Of a DNA stretch of 64,000 nucleotides, positions 5,321 to 48,636 are shown piece by piece. The stretch's first letter is position 1. Every line of letters begins with the position of its first letter. Under the pieces are notes generated by a model. It made no database searches and had not been told where the DNA came from. It saw only the letters and a program-made list of their open reading frames with translations. A program made the translations under genes and the position numbers. This stretch comes from Gemmatimonadota bacterium (GTDB lineage Bacteria > Gemmatimonadota > Gemmatimonadetes > Gemmatimonadales > GWC2-71-9), in assembly GCA_040388535.1 (NCBI GenBank), contig JAZKBR010000007.1, positions 192,862 through 256,861 on the forward strand. The letters are read 5' to 3'.

Positions 5321-5420
5321 AGAGACTAGAGACTAGAGATTAGAGACTAGAGACTAGAGACTGGAGGGTGTCATCCTGAGTGGAGACCCTCTAGTCTCTG
5401 ATCTCGAGTCTCTAGTCTCT
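5321..5420. repeat. Heptad inverted-repeat element A
   Basis: Left arm 5321-5362 is six back-to-back 7-bp units, AGAGACT (one is AGAGATT). Right arm 5393-5420 carries AGTCTCT three times plus one degenerate unit, the reverse complement of the left arm. The arms can pair through GGAGGG (5362-5367) and CCCTCT (5387-5392). The loop (5368-5386) contains GTCATCCTGAGTGG, a REP-like core also seen in elements C and D. It fills most of the gap between ettA and the response regulator. There is no T-tract, so it is not a typical intrinsic terminator. Confidence 0.85.
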
Positions 5421-5443
5421 ATTGGCTAATCGCTCGTCTCTCC

Positions 5444-13274: not shown

Positions 13275-14296
13275 AGCAGATTGCCCTTGCAGCGCTCGCC
13301 CTGGTGGCGGTTGCCACCAGCGTGACTGCCCAGCAGTACCACGTCCTCACCAAGGTGAACATCGGCGGCGATGGTGGCACCGACTACCTCAACGCCGATG
13401 CGGCCACCGGCCGGGTCTTCATCTCGCGCGGGACCCACGTGATGGTCGTGAATGGCAAGACCGGTGCGGTCGTCGGAGATATTGCCGACACCCCGCGCGT
13501 ACACGGCATTGCGTTCGCGCCCAAGGCCAATCACGGCTTCACCACCAATGGTGGTGACTCGACGGTGACAATGTTCGACCTCAAGACGCTGGCGCCGATC
13601 AAGAAGATCGCGACGCACACCGGCGGGCTCGACGGCATCATGTACGACGACGCCTCCGATCAGATCATCCTCACCAACCATTCCCGGCCGGTGGGCACCG
13701 CAACCGCGATCAACCCGACCACGGGCGATATCGTGGGTGTCGCGAACCTCGAAGACACCGCCCCGGAAGGCGCCGCAAGCGATGGCAAGGGGAAGCTCTT
13801 CGTGAACAACGAAGGGAAGAACACCATCCAGGTCATCGAAGCGAAGTCGATGAAGGTGCTCGCCTCGTGGTCGATCGCGCCGTGTGATGGTCCCACCGGG
13901 ATCGCCTACGATCGCAAGACCGACCGGATCTTCTCCGGATGCAGCAAGACCTCGGTGGTGGTCGATGCGAAGAGTGGCAAGGTGGTCGCGCAGATCACCA
14001 ACGGCGACGGCGTCGACGCGCTCGGCTGGGATCCGGCCGAGAAGCTCATCTACATCCCGGGCGGCGACGGGACGCTGACCATCGTGCACCAGGATTCGCC
14101 CGACAAGTACAGCGTCGTTGCGACCGTGGCCACGATGCGGGGCGCCAAGACAGTGACCGTCGACCTCGCCAGCCATATCGCCTACGTCTTCACGCCGGAG
14201 TACGGCCCTGCGCCGGCAGGCACGCCGACCCCGGCCAACGGACGGGCACCGCGCGGGCCAATGATCGGGGCGTGGTTGATTGCCGTAGGGAAATAG
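13271..14296 (+). CDS. Periplasmic YncE-like seven-bladed beta-propeller
   Basis: 341 residues; ATG in an ATGA overlap. Signal peptide to residue 20 (SVTAQQ). Repeating blade motifs such as ATGRVFISRGTHVMVVNGKTG, GVDALGWDPAEKLIYIPGGDG and VTVDLASHIAYVFTPEY are the YVTN/YncE pattern. No catalytic residues recognised. The family is usually described as exported ligand-binding propellers of unclear function. As last gene of the efflux operon it may bind the pump substrate or a breakdown product (inference). The stop TAG (14294-14296) lies partly in the first unit of repeat element B. Confidence 0.85.
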   Translation: MKQIALAALALVAVATSVTAQQYHVLTKVNIGGDGGTDYLNADAATGRVFISRGTHVMVVNGKTGAVVGDIADTPRVHGIAFAPKANHGFTTNGGDSTVTMFDLKTLAPIKKIATHTGGLDGIMYDDASDQIILTNHSRPVGTATAINPTTGDIVGVANLEDTAPEGAASDGKGKLFVNNEGKNTIQVIEAKSMKVLASWSIAPCDGPTGIAYDRKTDRIFSGCSKTSVVVDAKSGKVVAQITNGDGVDALGWDPAEKLIYIPGGDGTLTIVHQDSPDKYSVVATVATMRGAKTVTVDLASHIAYVFTPEYGPAPAGTPTPANGRAPRGPMIGAWLIAVGK

Positions 14297-14391
14297 AGAC
14301 TAGAGACTAGAGACTGGAGACTAGAGGGGGCGATGGTCGGGTGTTTGGCGCAAGACCATCGCTAGTCTCTAGTCTCCAGTCTCTAGTCTCT
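14295..14391. repeat. Heptad inverted-repeat element B
   Basis: Left arm: AGAGACT at 14295, 14302 and 14309, then GGAGACT at 14316. Right arm: AGTCTCT at 14364, AGTCTCC at 14371, AGTCTCT at 14378 and 14385. The GGAGACT variant has its complement AGTCTCC in the other arm. An inner 9-bp perfect stem (GCGATGGTC 14330-14338 with GACCATCGC 14354-14362) closes a 15-base loop. The whole can fold into a hairpin of about 40 bp, the best-paired of the five elements. It lacks the CCTGA core of A, C and D. Confidence 0.88.
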
Positions 14392-27623: not shown

Positions 27624-28698
27624 GTCGCTCGCCGCACTCGAATTCCGGATGCCCGCCGAGTGGGCCCGGCATCGCGGCACCTGGCTGTCGTGGCCGCATC
27701 GCGAGTCATCGTGGCCGGGCAACTTCGCGCCGGTGCTGCCGGTCATCGCCCAGATGATCCGTCATCTCACGCCCGGCGAAGAAGTGCACGTCAATGTGAC
27801 CGACGCCGAGATGGAGCGCGACGCACGCGCCGTGCTGGCGGCGGCCAAGGTGGCGACGCACAACGTCTTCTTCCACCACAATCCTACCAACGACGCCTGG
27901 TGTCGCGATCACGGCCCGATCTTCGTGCAACGCGGCAACGAGCAGCGCATCCTCGATTGGGGCTTCAATGCCTGGGGCGGCAAGTACCCGCCGTTTGATC
28001 TCGACGACGTGATCCCCACGCGCATCGGTGCCGAGTTCGGCATTCCGGTGTCGCATCCGGGGATGATCCTGGAAGGTGGCTCGATCGATGTGAACGGGCG
28101 CGGCACCTTGCTTACGACGGAAGCGTGCCTGCTCAACCCCAATCGCAATCCCGACCTCTCTCGCGAGGAGATCGAAACCCGGCTTCGTGACTGGCTGGGG
28201 GTCCGCCACATTCTCTGGCTCGGTGATGGCATCGTGGGCGACGACACCGATGGTCACATCGACGACATCACCCGCTTCACCGATGAGGCGACCGTCGTCA
28301 CCGTGTTAGAAGAGGACCCGCGCGACGAGAACTACGAATTGCTGCAGGACAATCTCCGCCGGCTGCAGTCGATGACCGATCAGGACGGCCACCCGCTCCG
28401 GATCGTGACCCTGCCGATGCCGCGGGCCGTGGTCTACGAGGAGCAGCGCCTCCCCGCTTCCTATGCCAACTTCTATATCGGCAACGACGTGGTCCTGCTG
28501 CCGACCTACGACCCCGCGCGAGATGCGGAGGCTCAGGCCACGCTCCAGGGGCTCTTCCCGACCCGCCGGGTGGTCCCGATCGACTGCACCGAACTGATCT
28601 GGGGCCTCGGGGCGTTTCATTGCCTGACACAGCAGTGGCCTGAGATAAACGAGAAGGGAGAAGCGAGAAGGGAGATGGGCGAGGGCCTGTTGCCCTGA
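27616..28698 (+). CDS. aguA: Agmatine deiminase
   Basis: 360 residues from a TTG at 27616 that overlaps the aguB stop by eight bases; the ATG at 27649 is the alternative, but TTG keeps the N-terminal TESLAALEFRMPAEW. Deiminase landmarks: RMPAEW...TWLSWPH, NDAWCRDHGPIFV, EGGSIDVNGRGTLLTTE, GDDTDGHIDDITRF, and catalytic C336 in GAFHCLTQQWP. It converts agmatine to N-carbamoylputrescine plus ammonia. After the family end (TQQWP) a tail of about 17 residues is encoded by repeat element C, and the TGA stop lies in that repeat's CCCTGAGC core. Confidence 0.93.
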   Translation: MTESLAALEFRMPAEWARHRGTWLSWPHRESSWPGNFAPVLPVIAQMIRHLTPGEEVHVNVTDAEMERDARAVLAAAKVATHNVFFHHNPTNDAWCRDHGPIFVQRGNEQRILDWGFNAWGGKYPPFDLDDVIPTRIGAEFGIPVSHPGMILEGGSIDVNGRGTLLTTEACLLNPNRNPDLSREEIETRLRDWLGVRHILWLGDGIVGDDTDGHIDDITRFTDEATVVTVLEEDPRDENYELLQDNLRRLQSMTDQDGHPLRIVTLPMPRAVVYEEQRLPASYANFYIGNDVVLLPTYDPARDAEAQATLQGLFPTRRVVPIDCTELIWGLGAFHCLTQQWPEINEKGEARREMGEGLLP

Positions 28699-28773
28699 GC
28701 GGAGCCTTCGAAGCGGGCAGAGTCGAGGGAGCCCGAGCTTCTCGCTTCTCCCTTCCCCCTTCACCCTTCTCGT
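28649..28773. repeat. Inverted-repeat element C with REP-like core
   Basis: Left arm 28649-28676 (AACGAGAAGGG, then AGAAGCGAGAAGGGAG) is the imperfect reverse complement of right arm 28735-28773 (CTTCTCGCTTCTCCC, then CACCCTTCTCGTT). The unit is a 6-8 bp AGAAGGG-like word, not AGAGACT. The middle holds GTTGCCCTGAGCGGAGCC and a GC-rich partial palindrome, the same CCTGA core as A and D. The left arm lies inside the 3' end of aguA; the rest fills the gap to the sigma factor gene. Confidence 0.75.
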
Positions 28774-42664: not shown

Positions 42665-45361
42665 ATGCCACTACCGCGCCTGCTCGCCGCCTTGTTGCTC
42701 GGCCTGAGCGTCTCCGCAACAGCCCAGGCACCAGCCCACCTCACCACCCCGCAGGAAGCGCTCGGGCACGCGATCGGTGCCGACTATCGGCTGCCGAACT
42801 ACACCCTGCTGCAGCGGTGGTGGGAGCAACTGGCGAAGCAGTCGCCCCGGATGCGGCTCGACACGATCGGTCGCACCGCCGAAGGACGGCCGCAGCTGAT
42901 GGCGGTGATTTCCTCGCCGGCGAATCTCGCGAAACTCGAGGAATACCGTCGCACGAGTGAGTCGCTGGCGCGCGGGCGCATCGATGAGGCCACGGCACGC
43001 AAGTTGGCGGCGAGCGGCAAGGCCGTGGTCTGGATCGATGGCGGACTCCACGCCGACGAGGTGCTCGGCGCCAATCAGCTGCTCGAACTGGTCTGGCAGT
43101 TCGTCTCGATGAACGACCCCGAAACACTGCGGATTCTCGATGATGTGATCATCCTCGCGGTGCAGGTGAACCCCGATGGCATGGAGCTGGTGGCCGACTG
43201 GTACATGCGCAGCGCCGACTCGCTCAAGCGCTCGACCGGCGGGCTGCCGCGGCTCTACGAGAAGTACGCGGGGCACGACGACAACCGCGATTTCTATCGC
43301 AACGCACTCCCCGAGTCACGCAATGACTCGCGGATCCAGTATCGTACCTGGTACCCGCAGATCATCTACAATCACCATCAGACCGGTCCGGCCGGCTCGG
43401 TGATGTTCGTCCCGCCGTTCCGAGATCCGTTCAACTACTTCTTCGATCCGCTCATCCCCACTTCGCTCGACTGGGTCGGGATGGCGATGCAGCGACGCTT
43501 CGCCGCCGAAGGCAAGGGCGGCATTGTCGACGAGAACTCCACCTCGTATTCCACCTGGTGGAACGGCGGACTCCGCACTGCCGGGTACTTCCACAACATG
43601 ATCGGCATTCTCACCGAGTCGATCGGCAACCCTACCCCGCAGACCATCCCGCTGCGCCTCGACCGCCAGCTGCCGAGCGGCGACGGCGTCTTCCCGGTGC
43701 AGTGGGGACCCTGGCGGTTCCGCCAGTCGATCGACTATTCGATGACCGCCAATCGCGCCATCCTCGATCTCGCGTCACGCTATCGCGAAGACCTGCTCTT
43801 CAATTTCTGGCGGATGGGCCGCAACTCCGTGGAGCGCGGGATGCGCGACAGCTGGACCGCCGAGCCGAACATCATTGATGCGGCGGCCAAGGCGAGCGTC
43901 GGGATGCAGGGCGCCGCCGCACAGCAGGCCCAGGCCGCCGTGCTGCGGGAGCCTGCTCGTCGCGATCCGCGCGCGTACGTGATTCCCGCGGGGCAGGCCG
44001 AGATGGGCAACGCGCTCGATTTCCTGCAGGCGCTGTCGACGTCGGGGATCGAGATTCACAAGGCCACGGCACCCTTCACCGTGAAGGGCGTGACCTACCC
44101 CAAGGGTTCCTTCGTGGTCCGTGGCGACCAGGCCTTCCGCCCCCACGTGCTCGACATGTTCGAGCCACAGCACCATCCGACCGACCTGCAGTACCCGGGT
44201 GGGCCGCCGAAGCGACCGTACGACAACGCCGGCTACACTCTCGCCTTTCAGATGGGCGTGCAGTTCGATCGCCTGCTCGATGCGTTTGATGCGCCACTCG
44301 CACCAGTCGTGACCGAAGAGATTCAACCCGATGCCGCACCGTTCGACAGCAAGGCGAAAGCGTGGCGAATTGCGGCGGGCTCGACCGATGGCTTCCTCGC
44401 GGTGAATCGCCTCGTCAAGGCGGCCCAGAAGGTTGATCGCCTCGCCAACGGTGATTTCCTCGTGCCGGCGAGCAAACTCAGCAGCCAGATCCTCGGCGAG
44501 CTGGCTCGCGAGCGCGGCCTGCCGACTTTCGCAGTCGCGAAGAGCAGCGGCGGCACTCCCGTGAAGCCGTTGCGTGTCGGACTCTGGGATCGCTACGGTG
44601 GCTCGATGCCGGCAGGCTGGACCCGCTGGATTCTCGAGAAGTACGAAATGCCCTTCGAACTGGTGTATGCTCCGCGACTCGATGCCGGTGACCTGCGCAA
44701 GCAGTTTGACGTGCTGATCTTCGTCGACGGCGCCATCCCTGGTGCACCGCGCGGTGGTGGGCCCGGCGGCGGTGGCCCTGGCGGTCGCGGCATCGATACC
44801 GCCACGATCCCGGTGGAATACCGCAACCAGGTCGGCAATGTGACACTCGCGACCACGGTGCCGCAGCTCAAGGCCTTCCTCGAACAGGGTGGCAAGGTGG
44901 TCGCCATTGGCTCTTCGGCCCTCAACCTTGCCAGCGGGCTGGTGCTGCCGATCGAGAGCCAGCTGGTCGAGAAGCAGGCGGATGGTTCAGCGCGACCGAT
45001 CTCGCTCGACAGGTACTACATCCCTGGCTCGGTCCTGCGTGTGGCGGTCGACACCGCGCAATCCGCGGCGCTCGGCGCGCATCCGGTGACCGATGTCTTC
45101 TTCGACAACTCGCCGGTATTCCGGTTCCTGCCAGGTGCCGAGGCGAAGGGACTGAAGCGCATCGCCTGGTTCGCCGAGCCGGAGCCACTCAAGTCCGGCT
45201 GGGCCATCGGCCAGAACTATCTGCGCGACGGCATTGCAATGGCTTCGGCGCCGGTGGGACAGGGCACCGTCTACCTCTACGGGCCCGAGATTCTTTTCCG
45301 GGCACAGCCGCAGGGGACGTTCCGATTCCTGTTTAATGTGATGTACGGGACGACGCGATGA
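42665..45361 (+). CDS. Secreted M14-family zinc carboxypeptidase
   Basis: 898 residues. Signal peptide 1-20 (SATAQA). Peptidase_M14 domain at about 38-330: zinc ligands in GGLHADE (His, Glu) and the later NHHQ His, and the catalytic Glu in ILTESIGNP. RDFYRNALPESRN and YNHHQTGPAGS are further family motifs. The C-terminal half (about 380-890) is a non-peptidase extension containing a GPGGGGPGGRG linker and a class-I glutamine-amidotransferase-like fold (YGGSMPAGW, DVLIFVDGAI, KVVAIGSSALNLA). It should cleave C-terminal or cell-wall peptides outside the cell. Its stop codon TGA lies in the first unit of repeat E. Confidence 0.88.
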   Translation: MPLPRLLAALLLGLSVSATAQAPAHLTTPQEALGHAIGADYRLPNYTLLQRWWEQLAKQSPRMRLDTIGRTAEGRPQLMAVISSPANLAKLEEYRRTSESLARGRIDEATARKLAASGKAVVWIDGGLHADEVLGANQLLELVWQFVSMNDPETLRILDDVIILAVQVNPDGMELVADWYMRSADSLKRSTGGLPRLYEKYAGHDDNRDFYRNALPESRNDSRIQYRTWYPQIIYNHHQTGPAGSVMFVPPFRDPFNYFFDPLIPTSLDWVGMAMQRRFAAEGKGGIVDENSTSYSTWWNGGLRTAGYFHNMIGILTESIGNPTPQTIPLRLDRQLPSGDGVFPVQWGPWRFRQSIDYSMTANRAILDLASRYREDLLFNFWRMGRNSVERGMRDSWTAEPNIIDAAAKASVGMQGAAAQQAQAAVLREPARRDPRAYVIPAGQAEMGNALDFLQALSTSGIEIHKATAPFTVKGVTYPKGSFVVRGDQAFRPHVLDMFEPQHHPTDLQYPGGPPKRPYDNAGYTLAFQMGVQFDRLLDAFDAPLAPVVTEEIQPDAAPFDSKAKAWRIAAGSTDGFLAVNRLVKAAQKVDRLANGDFLVPASKLSSQILGELARERGLPTFAVAKSSGGTPVKPLRVGLWDRYGGSMPAGWTRWILEKYEMPFELVYAPRLDAGDLRKQFDVLIFVDGAIPGAPRGGGPGGGGPGGRGIDTATIPVEYRNQVGNVTLATTVPQLKAFLEQGGKVVAIGSSALNLASGLVLPIESQLVEKQADGSARPISLDRYYIPGSVLRVAVDTAQSAALGAHPVTDVFFDNSPVFRFLPGAEAKGLKRIAWFAEPEPLKSGWAIGQNYLRDGIAMASAPVGQGTVYLYGPEILFRAQPQGTFRFLFNVMYGTTR

Positions 45362-45384
45362 CAGATGACAGATGACAGATGACA
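45357..45384 (+). repeat. Heptad repeat E, left arm
   Basis: Four exact tandem units of GATGACA, starting two bases before the M14 gene stop, then degenerate GATGACG and GACGACG units and a GGA triplet run (45404-45423) that supplies the ribosome-binding site of the next gene. Its inverted partner TGTCATC is at 45829-45849, on the far side of the cupredoxin gene. Confidence 0.85.
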
Positions 45385-45425
45385 GCCGATAGATGACGGA
45401 CGACGGAGGAGGAGGAGGAGGACGG

Positions 45426-45776
45426 ATGGATCGAAACATTGCTTGCGTCGCGATCGCGCTGGTACTCGCGGCCAGCGGCTGCGCTGAAAACCCGGCATTG
45501 TACGGGCCCGGCGAAGGGAAGGTACAGGCGACCAACGCGCTGGTCTTCACACCGGCGACGGTGTTGACCACGGCAAACCATGACGTGACCTTCTCATTCG
45601 GCAGCACGGCGCATTCCATCATGTTCGATCCGAAATCTGGCGTGCCCGAGGATGTTCCACCGTCAAGTAACACCAGCGTCACCCGGAGATTTTCCGGACA
45701 GGGCCCGTTCAGCTATCACTGCGGGATTCACCCCAGCATGACCGGGACCGTCAACGTGTACTTCGCACCAGACTAA
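45426..45776 (+). CDS. Cupredoxin lipoprotein A
   Basis: 116 residues from the ATG at 45426, preceded by a run of GGA triplets that acts as Shine-Dalgarno site; an ATG 33 bases earlier lies in the repeat tract. Lipobox ASGC with Cys19. Type-1 copper ligands are all present: H63 (STAHSIMF), C99, H102 and M105 (YHCGIHPSM). So a small plastocyanin-like electron carrier anchored in a membrane. It is a paralogue of the convergent cupredoxin at 45856. The gene is flanked by inverted heptad repeats and followed by a terminator. Confidence 0.88.
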   Translation: MDRNIACVAIALVLAASGCAENPALYGPGEGKVQATNALVFTPATVLTTANHDVTFSFGSTAHSIMFDPKSGVPEDVPPSSNTSVTRRFSGQGPFSYHCGIHPSMTGTVNVYFAPD

Positions 45777-45783
45777 GGCAAGA

Positions 45784-45828
45784 GAAAGCGAAGACCGGTC
45801 TCCCAAACGGGAAGCCGGCCTTCGCTTC
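45784..45828. terminator. Bidirectional terminator-like hairpin between two cupredoxin genes
   Basis: A stem of about 20 bp (AAAGCGAAGACCGGTCTCCC with its complement after a four-base AAAC loop, a few wobble pairs) lies midway between the convergent stops at 45776 and 45856. Runs of A on one side and TTCGCTTCT on the other could serve both directions. Confidence 0.6.
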
Positions 45829-45849
45829 TGTCATCTGTCATCCGTCATC
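45829..45849 (-). repeat. Heptad repeat E, right arm
   Basis: TGTCATC twice and CGTCATC once, the reverse complement of the GATGACA units at 45357-45384. It begins where the terminator hairpin ends and stops a few bases before the end of the convergent cupredoxin gene. Confidence 0.8.
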
Positions 45850-45855
45850 CCTGCT

Positions 45856-46230
45856 TCAGTACGTCCCCGTCACCGGCGCCGCCGTCACGTGCACGGTCCC
45901 CGTCATGGTCGGGTGGATGCCGCAATGATACGGGAAATCTCCCGGGGTATTGAAGGTGCGGGTCACCGACTTGCTGCTTGAAGGGGTCGCAATATCCTCC
46001 GGCTTGCCGTCGGCGGCAGCGAAGATCACCGTATGCGCGGTGCTGCCGAAGACAAATCGCATCGGCTCACCGGTGTTCACGTTGAGTACGGCCGGGGTGA
46101 AGGCAAGCGCGTTCGAGGCCTGGACGGCTGGGCCGATCCCGTTCCCGTTGGTCCCCGAGTCGCCGCTGCAGGCAGACAATCCGACCGTGGCGGCCAGGGC
46201 GAAGAGTGCTGCGAAACGTGATGCGGTCAT
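45856..46230 (-). CDS. Cupredoxin lipoprotein B
   Basis: 124 residues. Lipobox LSAC with Cys21. Copper ligands H66 (STAHTVIF), C103, H106 and M109 (YHCGIHPTM). It shares NAL.FTPA, FGSTAH, PED and HCGIHP.MTGTV with cupredoxin A, so one is a duplicate of the other in opposite orientation. The ATG overlaps the YceI stop (ATGA), making it the last gene of a four-gene minus-strand operon. Probable role: periplasmic one-electron carrier; partner enzyme unknown. Confidence 0.88.
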   Translation of the reverse strand: MTASRFAALFALAATVGLSACSGDSGTNGNGIGPAVQASNALAFTPAVLNVNTGEPMRFVFGSTAHTVIFAAADGKPEDIATPSSSKSVTRTFNTPGDFPYHCGIHPTMTGTVHVTAAPVTGTY

Positions 46231-46811
46231 GATGTTCCTCCGGTGCCGAACGTGACGTCGACACGCACGATGATGTTCTCGTTCATCCGGAGCATTCCGA
46301 GCGCCTTGGTGAGACCGCCAATGCCGTAGTCCTTCACATTGACTGGTGTCGCGCCCTTGAAGCGGATGATACTCCCCTGTCGCCAGACCCAGCCGGGGAG
46401 CCGTGCAGAGCGGGTCTGTCCATGAAGCGTGAAATGCCCCATCAACACGACAGACGTTGAATCACCGTGCAGTTCACCGGGCGCAACCGAGTCGAGCTGA
46501 AAGCGCAACGCGGGATACTTCTCGACTTCAAGGGAGGACCAGGTATCGCGATCGCGCTTGCCGTTCTGGCTGCTCAGCGTTTTCGCCGGCGCCTCGACCC
46601 AGCCGCGAACCCGGGCGAGTCCATCGGTGCTCGACATCTCGCCCTTCAACGTGGTCGTGGTGCCGGTGAACGCGCCGAGCGTGGCCTTGGCATCAAAAGA
46701 GAGCGAGCCACGCAGTGCGGTCGCGGCGGGGTAGCCCTGCGCGATGGCCGACGACTGAGGCACCCCGCCGATCACCAGCACGCTGCAGAGCGCCAGCCAG
46801 CGCGTGTGCAT
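46227..46811 (-). CDS. Exported YceI-family lipocalin-like protein
   Basis: 194 residues from the ATG at 46811, which overlaps the previous gene's stop (TGATG). Signal peptide to about residue 25 (SSAIAQ). YceI features: SLSFDAKATLGAFTGTTTTLKGEM, RVRGWVEAPAKTLSSQNGKRDRDTWSSLEVEKYPALRFQLDSV, and the VVLMGHFTLHGQTRSARLP ending. The family folds as an extended lipocalin barrel that binds isoprenoid quinones or other long amphiphiles in the periplasm. Next to cupredoxins, quinone binding and electron transfer is an attractive but unproven idea. Confidence 0.87.
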   Translation of the reverse strand: MHTRWLALCSVLVIGGVPQSSAIAQGYPAATALRGSLSFDAKATLGAFTGTTTTLKGEMSSTDGLARVRGWVEAPAKTLSSQNGKRDRDTWSSLEVEKYPALRFQLDSVAPGELHGDSTSVVLMGHFTLHGQTRSARLPGWVWRQGSIIRFKGATPVNVKDYGIGGLTKALGMLRMNENIIVRVDVTFGTGGTS

Positions 46812-47644
46812 CAACGCACCAGCGGCGCGCGAACTACCAGGCGTCCGACCACGGCGTCACCCACCGTGCCATATCCTTCGGCCGTCACCCGCAACACACC
46901 GACGGGAAATGTCACGCCGCCAAAGAGTGACGCACGCTCCAGATTCACCTCGACCTTGCGCCGGTCGGTCTCGCCCTGTGCATTGGTGAAGTCCACCTGG
47001 AAGCGCGGACGCAATACGCTGTAGCCCACGCCGAGGTGCGGCCGGACCCTTCCCTTGCCGCCGCCGACGACCGCCTCGACCCCGAACACGCCCGGCGCCC
47101 AGCGATCGTCCGAGATGGTGCCACCAGAGCACTCGCTCGCGGGGTCTCGGATGGCGGCCTTGTCGCAGACAATCGGTGCGTGCAATGCGCCGAGAACACC
47201 TTCGGCCCGCAGGCCCAGTGCCCAGCCGTTCGAGAGCGCAAAGGGGTGCGCGATCGCGAGTGACACCAGATTCGCCTTCACCCCACGCACGCGCACGGGT
47301 GGAATCCAGGCCGCCTCGAGCAGGAAGCCGCCGACCACCGCACTCAGGCGCGGACGCACCACCACCGGAATCGGATCGGTGTTTTCCGGACCCTTGCCCG
47401 GACGGCAAGTCGTCGGCGTCGCCGTGGCGTCGTTTACCTTCGGCAGGTTCGCGACTTCGACGCCGATACTCACCCCGCGCGGCTTGCCCACCGGGGCACG
47501 CGCACCGGTGAACGCCATCGGCACCGAGAGGATCGCGAAGCTCTTCGCCTCGTTCGATTCCTTGCCAGGGAAGCAATCGCCCTGCGCACGGAGCACCATC
47601 GGCGCGAGCATCAGCGCCGCCACAATTCTCGAAGTCTTCCTCAC
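46811..47644 (-). CDS. Exported protein, possible outer-membrane barrel
   Basis: 277 residues, ATG in the ATGA overlap with the lipoprotein stop. Signal peptide 1-20 (VLRAQG). Regular alternating hydrophobic strands (RLSAVVGGFLLEAAWIPPV, NLVSLAIAHPFALSNGWALGLRAEGVLGALH, RPHLGVGYSVLRPRFQVDF, GGVTFPVGVLRVTAEGYG) and glycine-rich turns suggest an outer-membrane beta-barrel. Two Cys pairs (DCFPG/TTCRP and VCDKA/SECSG) could form disulfides. I do not recognise the family. It is coded between the Ig/cupredoxin lipoprotein and YceI. Confidence 0.65.
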   Translation of the reverse strand: MRKTSRIVAALMLAPMVLRAQGDCFPGKESNEAKSFAILSVPMAFTGARAPVGKPRGVSIGVEVANLPKVNDATATPTTCRPGKGPENTDPIPVVVRPRLSAVVGGFLLEAAWIPPVRVRGVKANLVSLAIAHPFALSNGWALGLRAEGVLGALHAPIVCDKAAIRDPASECSGGTISDDRWAPGVFGVEAVVGGGKGRVRPHLGVGYSVLRPRFQVDFTNAQGETDRRKVEVNLERASLFGGVTFPVGVLRVTAEGYGTVGDAVVGRLVVRAPLVR

Positions 47645-48636
47645 TGGACGATCACCGTACCGCGCATGCCGCTGGTCGTGGAGCCGTGCACGCTGCAGTA
47701 ATACTTGTACGTGCCCGGCGCCGTGAACTTGACCTGATAGGTCTTTGGAGGATCGAATCCCCCGCCTTGGCCAGGGAAGGACGGATTGCCGTAGGGCACC
47801 AGATCGTGGAACCCATCCTGCCAGACGAAGCTCACCGTCGTCCCCGCTGCGATCACGAGAGTCGCGGGCTCGAAGCGGGCACCGCCAGCGGTGAAGAGCT
47901 TCACGGTGGCCGTACCTGGCGGCAACGCGACGCTCGTCGCGGCGAAGCCAAGGCTCGGCCCTGCGAGCGTGCCGGCAAATGCCGTTGCGGTCTGCGCGCC
48001 GATCGCCGTACCGAGCGTCCAGAACGAAGTCGCGATACCGTCCACGCCGGAGGTCGTCTGGGCCGGCTCGAAGAACGCGTTGGCACCGTCGGCCTGCCAG
48101 ATGACGAGCTCACCACCAGCCGGTACGCCACCACGAGTCACCATGACCCGCAATTCGTTGCCGAGCTGGGATCCGGCGTTGCCCGTCTGCCCGTTCCCGG
48201 CGCTCCCGGGGAAGGCCAGACCGAGTACGCCAGGAGTCGCAGTGAGTACCGTCGCGGCGAACTGCGTTGACGCGGTCCCCACCGTGGCGTTTGCCGTTTG
48301 TGGTCCCGCGATGTTGCCGACGGTCCAGGCCGCGGTGGCGACTCCGTCGGCATTGGTGGCACCGCTGCCGATGATGGTCCCTCCGCTCGCGGTCCAGGTG
48401 ACGTCCTGGCCTGTAACGGCCGCGCCCGAACGCGACACCTTGACGCGCAGGGGAACGGCAATGGCCTGACCGGTAATCACGGTCTGCGCATCGCCGCTGG
48501 GTGACCCCTTTTCCACCAGGATGGGTGCGGGCGGCGGCGGCGGAGGAGGGGCAGTGCCGCCGTCGCCACCGCAGGCACTGACCAGCAGCATCGCGAGCAC
48601 GGGAAATGACGCCCGTGACGAACAGTTGCGTGACAT
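47641..48636 (-). CDS. Lipoprotein with two Ig-like domains and a C-terminal cupredoxin
   Basis: 331 residues from the ATG at 48636 with GAGGAG four bases upstream; a TTG at 48663 lies before that site. Lipobox LVSAC, then a proline tract, two Ig-like (Big_1-type) domains at about 40-135 and 140-235 (VKVSRSGAAVTGQDVTWTAS, VMVTRGGVPAGGELVIWQA), and a plastocyanin-like domain (FTAGGARFEPATLVIAAGTTVSFVWQD). Copper ligands: His in DGFHDLV, Cys and His in YYCSVHG, Met in SGM. First gene of the copper/YceI operon. It may hold the copper site away from the membrane, near a surface partner. Confidence 0.87.
   Translation of the reverse strand: MSRNCSSRASFPVLAMLLVSACGGDGGTAPPPPPPPAPILVEKGSPSGDAQTVITGQAIAVPLRVKVSRSGAAVTGQDVTWTASGGTIIGSGATNADGVATAAWTVGNIAGPQTANATVGTASTQFAATVLTATPGVLGLAFPGSAGNGQTGNAGSQLGNELRVMVTRGGVPAGGELVIWQADGANAFFEPAQTTSGVDGIATSFWTLGTAIGAQTATAFAGTLAGPSLGFAATSVALPPGTATVKLFTAGGARFEPATLVIAAGTTVSFVWQDGFHDLVPYGNPSFPGQGGGFDPPKTYQVKFTAPGTYKYYCSVHGSTTSGMRGTVIVQ

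Follow-up and report, generated by a model that had tools for sequence, protein, structure and literature searches.

The window, a 64,000-nucleotide stretch of a genome from a Gemmatimonadota bacterium (order Gemmatimonadales), carries at 45426-48636 a four-gene operon, E-D-C-B, which very probably represents a conserved redox module of the Gemmatimonadales envelope. It joins a lipoprotein with Ig-like and cupredoxin domains (E), a modelled outer-membrane barrel (D), a YceI lipocalin (C) and a small cupredoxin lipoprotein (B), and is met by a convergent paralogue of the last gene (A). The evidence comes chiefly from the redox genes that recur around D in other genomes and from the replacement of the copper protein by iron-sulphur or cytochrome-like lipoproteins. 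The fuller favoured account, an envelope electron-transfer module with a quinone-holding YceI protein and a role in lipid protection, stands at about even chances. A first-pass annotation of the window had described a five-gene copper-protein cluster with YceI at this place; its coordinates are right, Pfam and the reading of the DNA being in agreement, and the features are the following.

A: 45426..45776, plus strand; small cupredoxin lipoprotein of 116 amino acids, convergent to the operon, paralogue of B, with lipobox ASGC and H/C/H/M ligands
Hairpin between the convergent A and B: 45777..45855, no strand; minimum free energy -33.2 kcal/mol (z -4.1) on the plus strand and -35.9 kcal/mol (z -3.2) on the minus strand
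B: 45856..46230, minus strand; small cupredoxin lipoprotein of 124 amino acids, last gene of the operon, matching Copper-bind, Cupredoxin_1 and plastocyanin 1pcs
C: 46227..46811, minus strand; secreted YceI lipocalin of 194 amino acids (PF04264), whose family profile matches solved YceI proteins
D: 46811..47644, minus strand; 10-stranded outer-membrane beta barrel of 277 amino acids as modelled with AlphaFold2 (AF2), with an N-terminal helix at 31-43 and two putative disulphides
E: 47641..48636, minus strand; lipoprotein of 331 amino acids, first gene of the operon, in which two Ig-like domains precede a cupredoxin domain (Copper-bind) at the C-terminus

The order E-D-C-B and the start-to-stop overlaps of the four genes, also claimed by the first-pass annotation, were read directly from the DNA, with junctions GTGA (E/D), TGATG (D/C, with an additional in-frame ATG 3 bases upstream) and ATGA (C/B). 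E starts at the ATG at 48636, and the start of A at 45426 was also picked by a codon-usage gene caller. The hairpin between A and B is likely a shared terminator; it was absent from the output of a simple terminator scan.

Conserved neighbourhood of D

Of 288 genomes from the order, 81 carry a D gene, as do 55 of 394 sampled across the class. All 21 D loci in the named genome collection belong to Gemmatimonadota, the nearest match being Gemmatimonadales bacterium isolate MGR_bin293 with 64% identity. The neighbourhood set comprised 85 D places in 80 genomes, after exclusion of two D fragments (G438 and a second piece in G048) from the 87 rows; 83 of these places had a usable D gene and 2 were uncallable. 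Within three genes of the 83 called D genes were YceI (31), cupredoxin (30), LytTR (28), LytS (26), a cytochrome-like lipoprotein (10), DoxX (8) and Rieske proteins (3), with any redox carrier present at 38. LytTR occurred near 28/83 D genes versus 33/468 control genes, and its link to D is weaker because LytTR regulators are common in these genomes. Starting from YceI instead, 59 of 151 order genomes had a relative of this protein, and tblastn placed D next to YceI in 8 of 29 YceI-centred loci.

A six-frame search within 3 kb of all 85 places, which takes in the cupredoxin of locus L162 that is absent from the gene calls, returned cupredoxin at 35, YceI at 32, any redox family at 43 and redox together with YceI at 19, versus 4, 13, 14 and 0 at 1080 control positions in 40 stretches, where a single gene each for a cupredoxin, a YceI and a Rieske protein accounts for all the counts. 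Since the hidden Markov models (HMMs) of this search were trained partly on these same loci, a separate test was made with Pfam models in 25 D-bearing genomes chosen for few contigs (26 D places, 3 kb limit). Near D lay 9 of 118 matches to the cupredoxin family PF00127 where 0.21 were expected (about 43-fold enrichment) and 9 of 60 matches to PF04264 where 0.11 were expected (about 85-fold), the numerators being drawn from matches on D-carrying contigs and the denominators being the full totals; PF00127 matched at 8 of the 26 places and PF04264 at 9. The Poisson probabilities come out too small because the genomes are related; the redox neighbours of D span 22 of 29 genera. The whole 3.72 Mb genome holds four PF00127 matches, two of them within this cluster, and the 40 control stretches hold one cupredoxin among 708 genes. 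The cupredoxin/YceI cluster is not a product of chance.

Conservation of gene order, which the first-pass annotation had named as a check of the cluster, was seen across the loci: the gene immediately preceding D on its strand encodes a cupredoxin in 22 and a Rieske protein in 3, and directly downstream of D lie YceI in 16, a cytochrome-like lipoprotein in 10 and DoxX in 8. The order LytS-LytTR-cupredoxin-D-cytochrome-like-YceI recurs in five loci (L140, L169, L174, L195 and L198).

Exchange of the carrier beside D

The three Rieske genes encode [2Fe-2S] lipoproteins that can be assigned firmly from their sequences, with PF00355 E-values of 2.7e-14, 1.7e-13 and 3.8e-12, a lipobox in all three and a Tat-type RR motif before the lipobox in two. 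The cytochrome-like lipoproteins after D occur in L135, L138, L140, L169, L174, L192, L194, L195, L196 and L198, five of which have no cupredoxin nearby. All ten carry an invariant C-X4-CH or C-X5-CH motif and an invariant Met. In a profile search of the PDB their profile matched hydrazine synthase alpha (E 2.1e-4) and weakly FoxE; the AF2 model (pLDDT 80.8) gave a best fold-search E-value of 0.35, with Z-scores of 6.0 and 6.2 for hydrazine synthase alpha and FoxE. These features are suggestive, not proof, of c-type cytochromes.

Carrier states were mapped on a D tree of 80 rows, from which 3 further D genes under 200 residues were left out. The Rieske group forms one clade with a single change, and the cytochrome-only group accounts for two changes. 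Together the carrier states need 19 changes, a count inflated by missed genes, versus a mean of 32.6 after shuffling, suggesting that carriers were partly inherited and partly exchanged.

The replacement of a copper carrier by an iron-sulphur or haem-type one speaks for electron transfer and against copper handling, in which outer-membrane cupredoxins would bind or scavenge copper, D would let it pass and YceI would be an incidental or stress protein. The clustering of three type-1 copper sites, the rank of cupredoxin as the commonest redox neighbour of D (35/85) and the presence of CopC, SCO and cupredoxin genes elsewhere in the genome would all suit copper handling. Yet the carrier is a Rieske protein in three loci and a cytochrome-like protein lacking a nearby cupredoxin in five, D has no profile match to PcoB/CopB, and its conserved cysteines appear paired. 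As cupredoxins, Rieske proteins and cytochromes are all one-electron carriers, copper chemistry is unlikely as the purpose, and copper handling as a whole is very improbable.

A DoxX-like membrane protein is encoded directly downstream of D in L109, L110, L116, L120, L126, L127, L164 and L172. YceI lies within three genes in none of these eight loci, as if one of the two replaced the other beside D.

Several observations weigh against a conserved electron-transfer module with YceI. No redox family lies within 3 kb at 42 of the 85 D places and no YceI at 53; with about half of the places lacking a redox neighbour, D also works in other contexts. Within the window's genus, three of six D loci (L033, L034 and L036) have no nearby cupredoxin, and A and B were seen only in the window's genome, not at the other five D loci. 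The Rieske replacement is confined to a single lineage. The C-X4/5-CH motif is a non-standard haem motif with weak fold matches, and the cytochrome-like lipoproteins gave no Pfam match over cut-off and, for four sequences, no NCBIfam match near cut-off. Finally, YceI shows no evident signal peptide in four of the five LytS-LytTR-cupredoxin-D-cytochrome-like-YceI loci, the fifth being cut at a contig end, nor in the genus g36; the missing signals were judged by eye, and a crude script calls two of the four 'signal-like'.

The loci poor in redox genes could point to another function, in which D is a barrel for lipids or other hydrophobic compounds, YceI its periplasmic carrier and the redox proteins frequent but loose neighbours. 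D-YceI pairs that have no redox neighbour (e.g. L033, L034, L036 and L054), together with the half of D loci devoid of redox genes, fit such a role, whereas the enrichment of Pfam cupredoxins near D and their consistent upstream, same-strand placement do not, and it is considered unlikely.

One group of loci (L107, L108, L119, L166, L168, L173 and L175) shows a different D context, with D followed by a large protein, which on visual inspection resembles a beta-propeller in L107 and L119, in most cases also by a lipoprotein of about 660 amino acids, and with no redox neighbour.

Cupredoxin lipoproteins

B exceeds the Pfam cut-offs for Copper-bind (24.1 bits, cut-off 21.2) and Cupredoxin_1 (27.4, cut-off 27) and matches the plastocyanin structure 1pcs (E 3e-6). 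E exceeds the Copper-bind cut-off with 34.1 bits and matches the plastocyanin model TIGR02656 (E 7e-10); its Ig-like part matches Big_1 in two stretches with 27.3 bits, under the cut-off of 34.9. A taken alone falls under both cut-offs (19.1 vs 27 and 13.1 vs 21.2), yet is 50% identical to B. None of the window's cupredoxins reached an NCBIfam equivalog cut-off. All 27 D-linked cupredoxins in the alignment, A, B and E among them, keep the type-1 ligands H, C, H and M, bearing out the first-pass claim that all copper ligands are present in the three domains. Each of the three proteins has a lipoprotein signal sequence and a lipobox, as read from the sequence.

Tandem heptamer arrays of the GATGACA, AGAGACT and GAGAAGG types form inverted pairs in the window, and one pair (45357-45397 and 45827-45849) brackets gene A. 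Further arrays lie at 5321-5421, 14294-14391 and 28651-28771, with inverted pairs tens of bases apart, and comparable arrays occur elsewhere in the genome (L237 and L241).

The outer-membrane barrel D

Neither Pfam nor NCBIfam yields a match to D at E <= 1. An AF2 model built from an alignment of 37 family members (pLDDT 92.7, pTM 0.85) has 10 strands and a helix at 31-43, and D is thus confidently modelled as a 10-stranded outer-membrane barrel of a previously unnamed family; the barrel candidate of the first-pass annotation is in this way backed by structure prediction. The top fold match is a designed barrel (Z 17.1), followed by Legionella porin I (Z 15.0, 200 residues, 4.2 A), OpcA (Z 14.2, 192 residues, 3.7 A) and pOmpT (Z 13.7, 208 residues, 3.7 A); soluble nitrobindin barrels also match, with Z 13-14 over about 135 residues. 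The comparison covered the PDB chains ranked highest by Foldseek, so that a family's absence carries no meaning. The 10-stranded fold is shared with OpcA and OmpT/Pla (Z about 13-14 over about 180-210 residues, 3.3-3.9 A), but D is 8-12% identical to them and has no sequence family match, and a shared function is not implied.

Searches of Pfam, NCBIfam and the PDB for a link to known copper or fatty-acid barrels gave generic barrels and no sequence family, and the link was rejected. FadL stands among the weak fold matches (Z 8.9), which was not accepted as kinship, and no profile match to the copper-resistance barrel PcoB/CopB was found at E <= 1 in Pfam or NCBIfam. Of the 37 members, 33 have both C24 and C80, 3 have neither and 1 has a mixed state, and C160 and C172 occur together in 36. 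This largely pairwise pattern points to two disulphide bonds rather than a free metal site.

A barrel with redox lipoproteins in fixed order resembles the small porin-cytochrome systems, and D together with its lipoprotein could move electrons across the outer membrane as an extracellular conduit. The nearest solved relatives of the cytochrome-like family include FoxE, listed in the PDB as a putative iron oxidase. Like MtrCAB, MtoAB and Cyc2, the loci combine an outer-membrane barrel with a redox carrier. Unlike them, judged on general background for their barrel sizes, the barrel here is small and 10-stranded, lacks a haem motif, and is accompanied by single-centre lipoproteins and by YceI. 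So narrow a barrel argues against conduction, and the surroundings of D showed no multihaem cytochrome: no cytochrome of any kind is fused to D or encoded in the window operon, and relatives have at most a mono-centre cytochrome-like lipoprotein. To our knowledge, YceI has no role in known extracellular electron conduits. Such a conduit is judged improbable.

YceI and the proposed quinone

C scores 56.3 bits against PF04264 (cut-off 23.7), and the profile of its family matches the solved YceI structures 1y0g (E 2e-19) and 1wub. Among the partners in the module, YceI alone has a ligand class that is known. According to the excerpts of PMC9113575 used here, an isoprenoid or ubiquinone-8 is bound in most of the solved YceI structures, and a Neisseria YceI binds ubiquinone-8. 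Going by this knowledge of the YceI family alone, a quinone in C is plausible. The same excerpts describe BcnA-LcoA of Burkholderia, a YceI lipocalin with a cytochrome b561 that serves peroxyl-radical detoxification, and propose that the cytochrome re-reduces the YceI-bound quinone to quench lipid peroxyl radicals (PMC9113575).

By analogy, YceI would hold an isoprenoid quinone in the periplasm, and a carrier lipoprotein docked near D may exchange single electrons with it, with cupredoxin, Rieske protein or cytochrome standing in place of cytochrome b561. The quinone would thereby be kept redox-active and envelope lipids protected, as proposed for BcnA-LcoA. That a YceI-bound quinone is the redox partner of the module is given slightly less than an even chance, and lipid protection, although the likeliest of the purposes considered, is doubtful. 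The first-pass annotation had envisaged a periplasmic path from quinone to copper carriers: a redox function of the cluster is well supported by the conserved neighbourhood and the Rieske and cytochrome-like replacements, whereas the lack of an evident export signal on YceI in four of five loci counts against a purely periplasmic electron path.

The genome's second YceI (L062:6475-9285, contig C2) adjoins a PepSY_TM protein and an ApbE-DUF2271 protein, possibly another pairing of YceI with redox function through an extracytoplasmic flavin protein.

Candidate electron acceptors in the genome

The chief alternative purpose of the module is respiratory: the lipoproteins would carry electrons of the quinone pool, through an alternative complex III-like enzyme, to NosZ or an oxidase, with D and YceI as accessories. 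The genome offers candidate acceptors outside the window. A Sec-type NosZ (TIGR04246, 919 bits, cut-off 625) is encoded on another contig with SCO, CopC and a cupredoxin. Four COX1 matches, two long and two short, all lie on contig C2; the window's contig C7 has no COX1 homologue, in line with the first-pass statement that the window lacks a terminal oxidase. Also outside the window's contig is an NrfD/cytochrome-c cluster, which we take to resemble alternative complex III and which has a cupredoxin at a distance of about 4 kb. The sole PF01292 (cytochrome b561) match in the genome is likewise on contig C2, where a COX1 match lies at a distance of about 1.6 kb. Against a respiratory branch, however, these complexes already own nearby cupredoxins (L240 and L241), no oxidase or reductase was seen near D on maps inspected by eye and with the HMMs used, which were not an all-oxidase search, and it is not obvious what an outer-membrane barrel would do in such a path. 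The respiratory purpose is also rated unlikely.

Relation to known systems and implications

As in BcnA-LcoA, on the excerpts of that report, a secreted YceI lipocalin is encoded with a one-electron redox partner and a quinone is the proposed ligand. The module differs in that no cytochrome b561 gene lies next to the window's YceI, the redox partners are lipoproteins of the cupredoxin, Rieske or cytochrome-like type, and the unit includes an outer-membrane barrel. The copper proteins share the H/C/H/M type-1 site with plastocyanin, amicyanin and pseudoazurin, as the match of B to 1pcs also indicates; unlike these they are lipid-anchored, and the cupredoxin of E is fused behind two Ig-like domains. 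E-D-C-B adds new carriers and a barrel to the theme of YceI with a redox partner.

It is tentatively suggested, though somewhat unlikely, that D is a common dock for three unrelated one-electron carriers, each with a quinone-binding YceI, forming an outer-membrane quinone:carrier oxidoreductase module. No such module is described in the open-licence PMC literature searched, which held no paper pairing YceI with cupredoxin or blue copper, and none on this topic, by title and start of abstract, for YceI with Rieske or for Gemmatimonad with cupredoxin or plastocyanin.

The analysis bears on the function of the isoprenoid bound by YceI lipocalins. In the excerpts considered, the only studied YceI pairing, that with cytochrome b561, leaves the electron step hypothetical. 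The loci described here offer purifiable copper, iron-sulphur and cytochrome-like partners with soluble domains and strong spectra, making quinol-to-carrier transfer directly testable in vitro. They also draw attention to an outer-membrane barrel family conserved in Gemmatimonadota and suggest that these bacteria perform redox work at their outer membrane.

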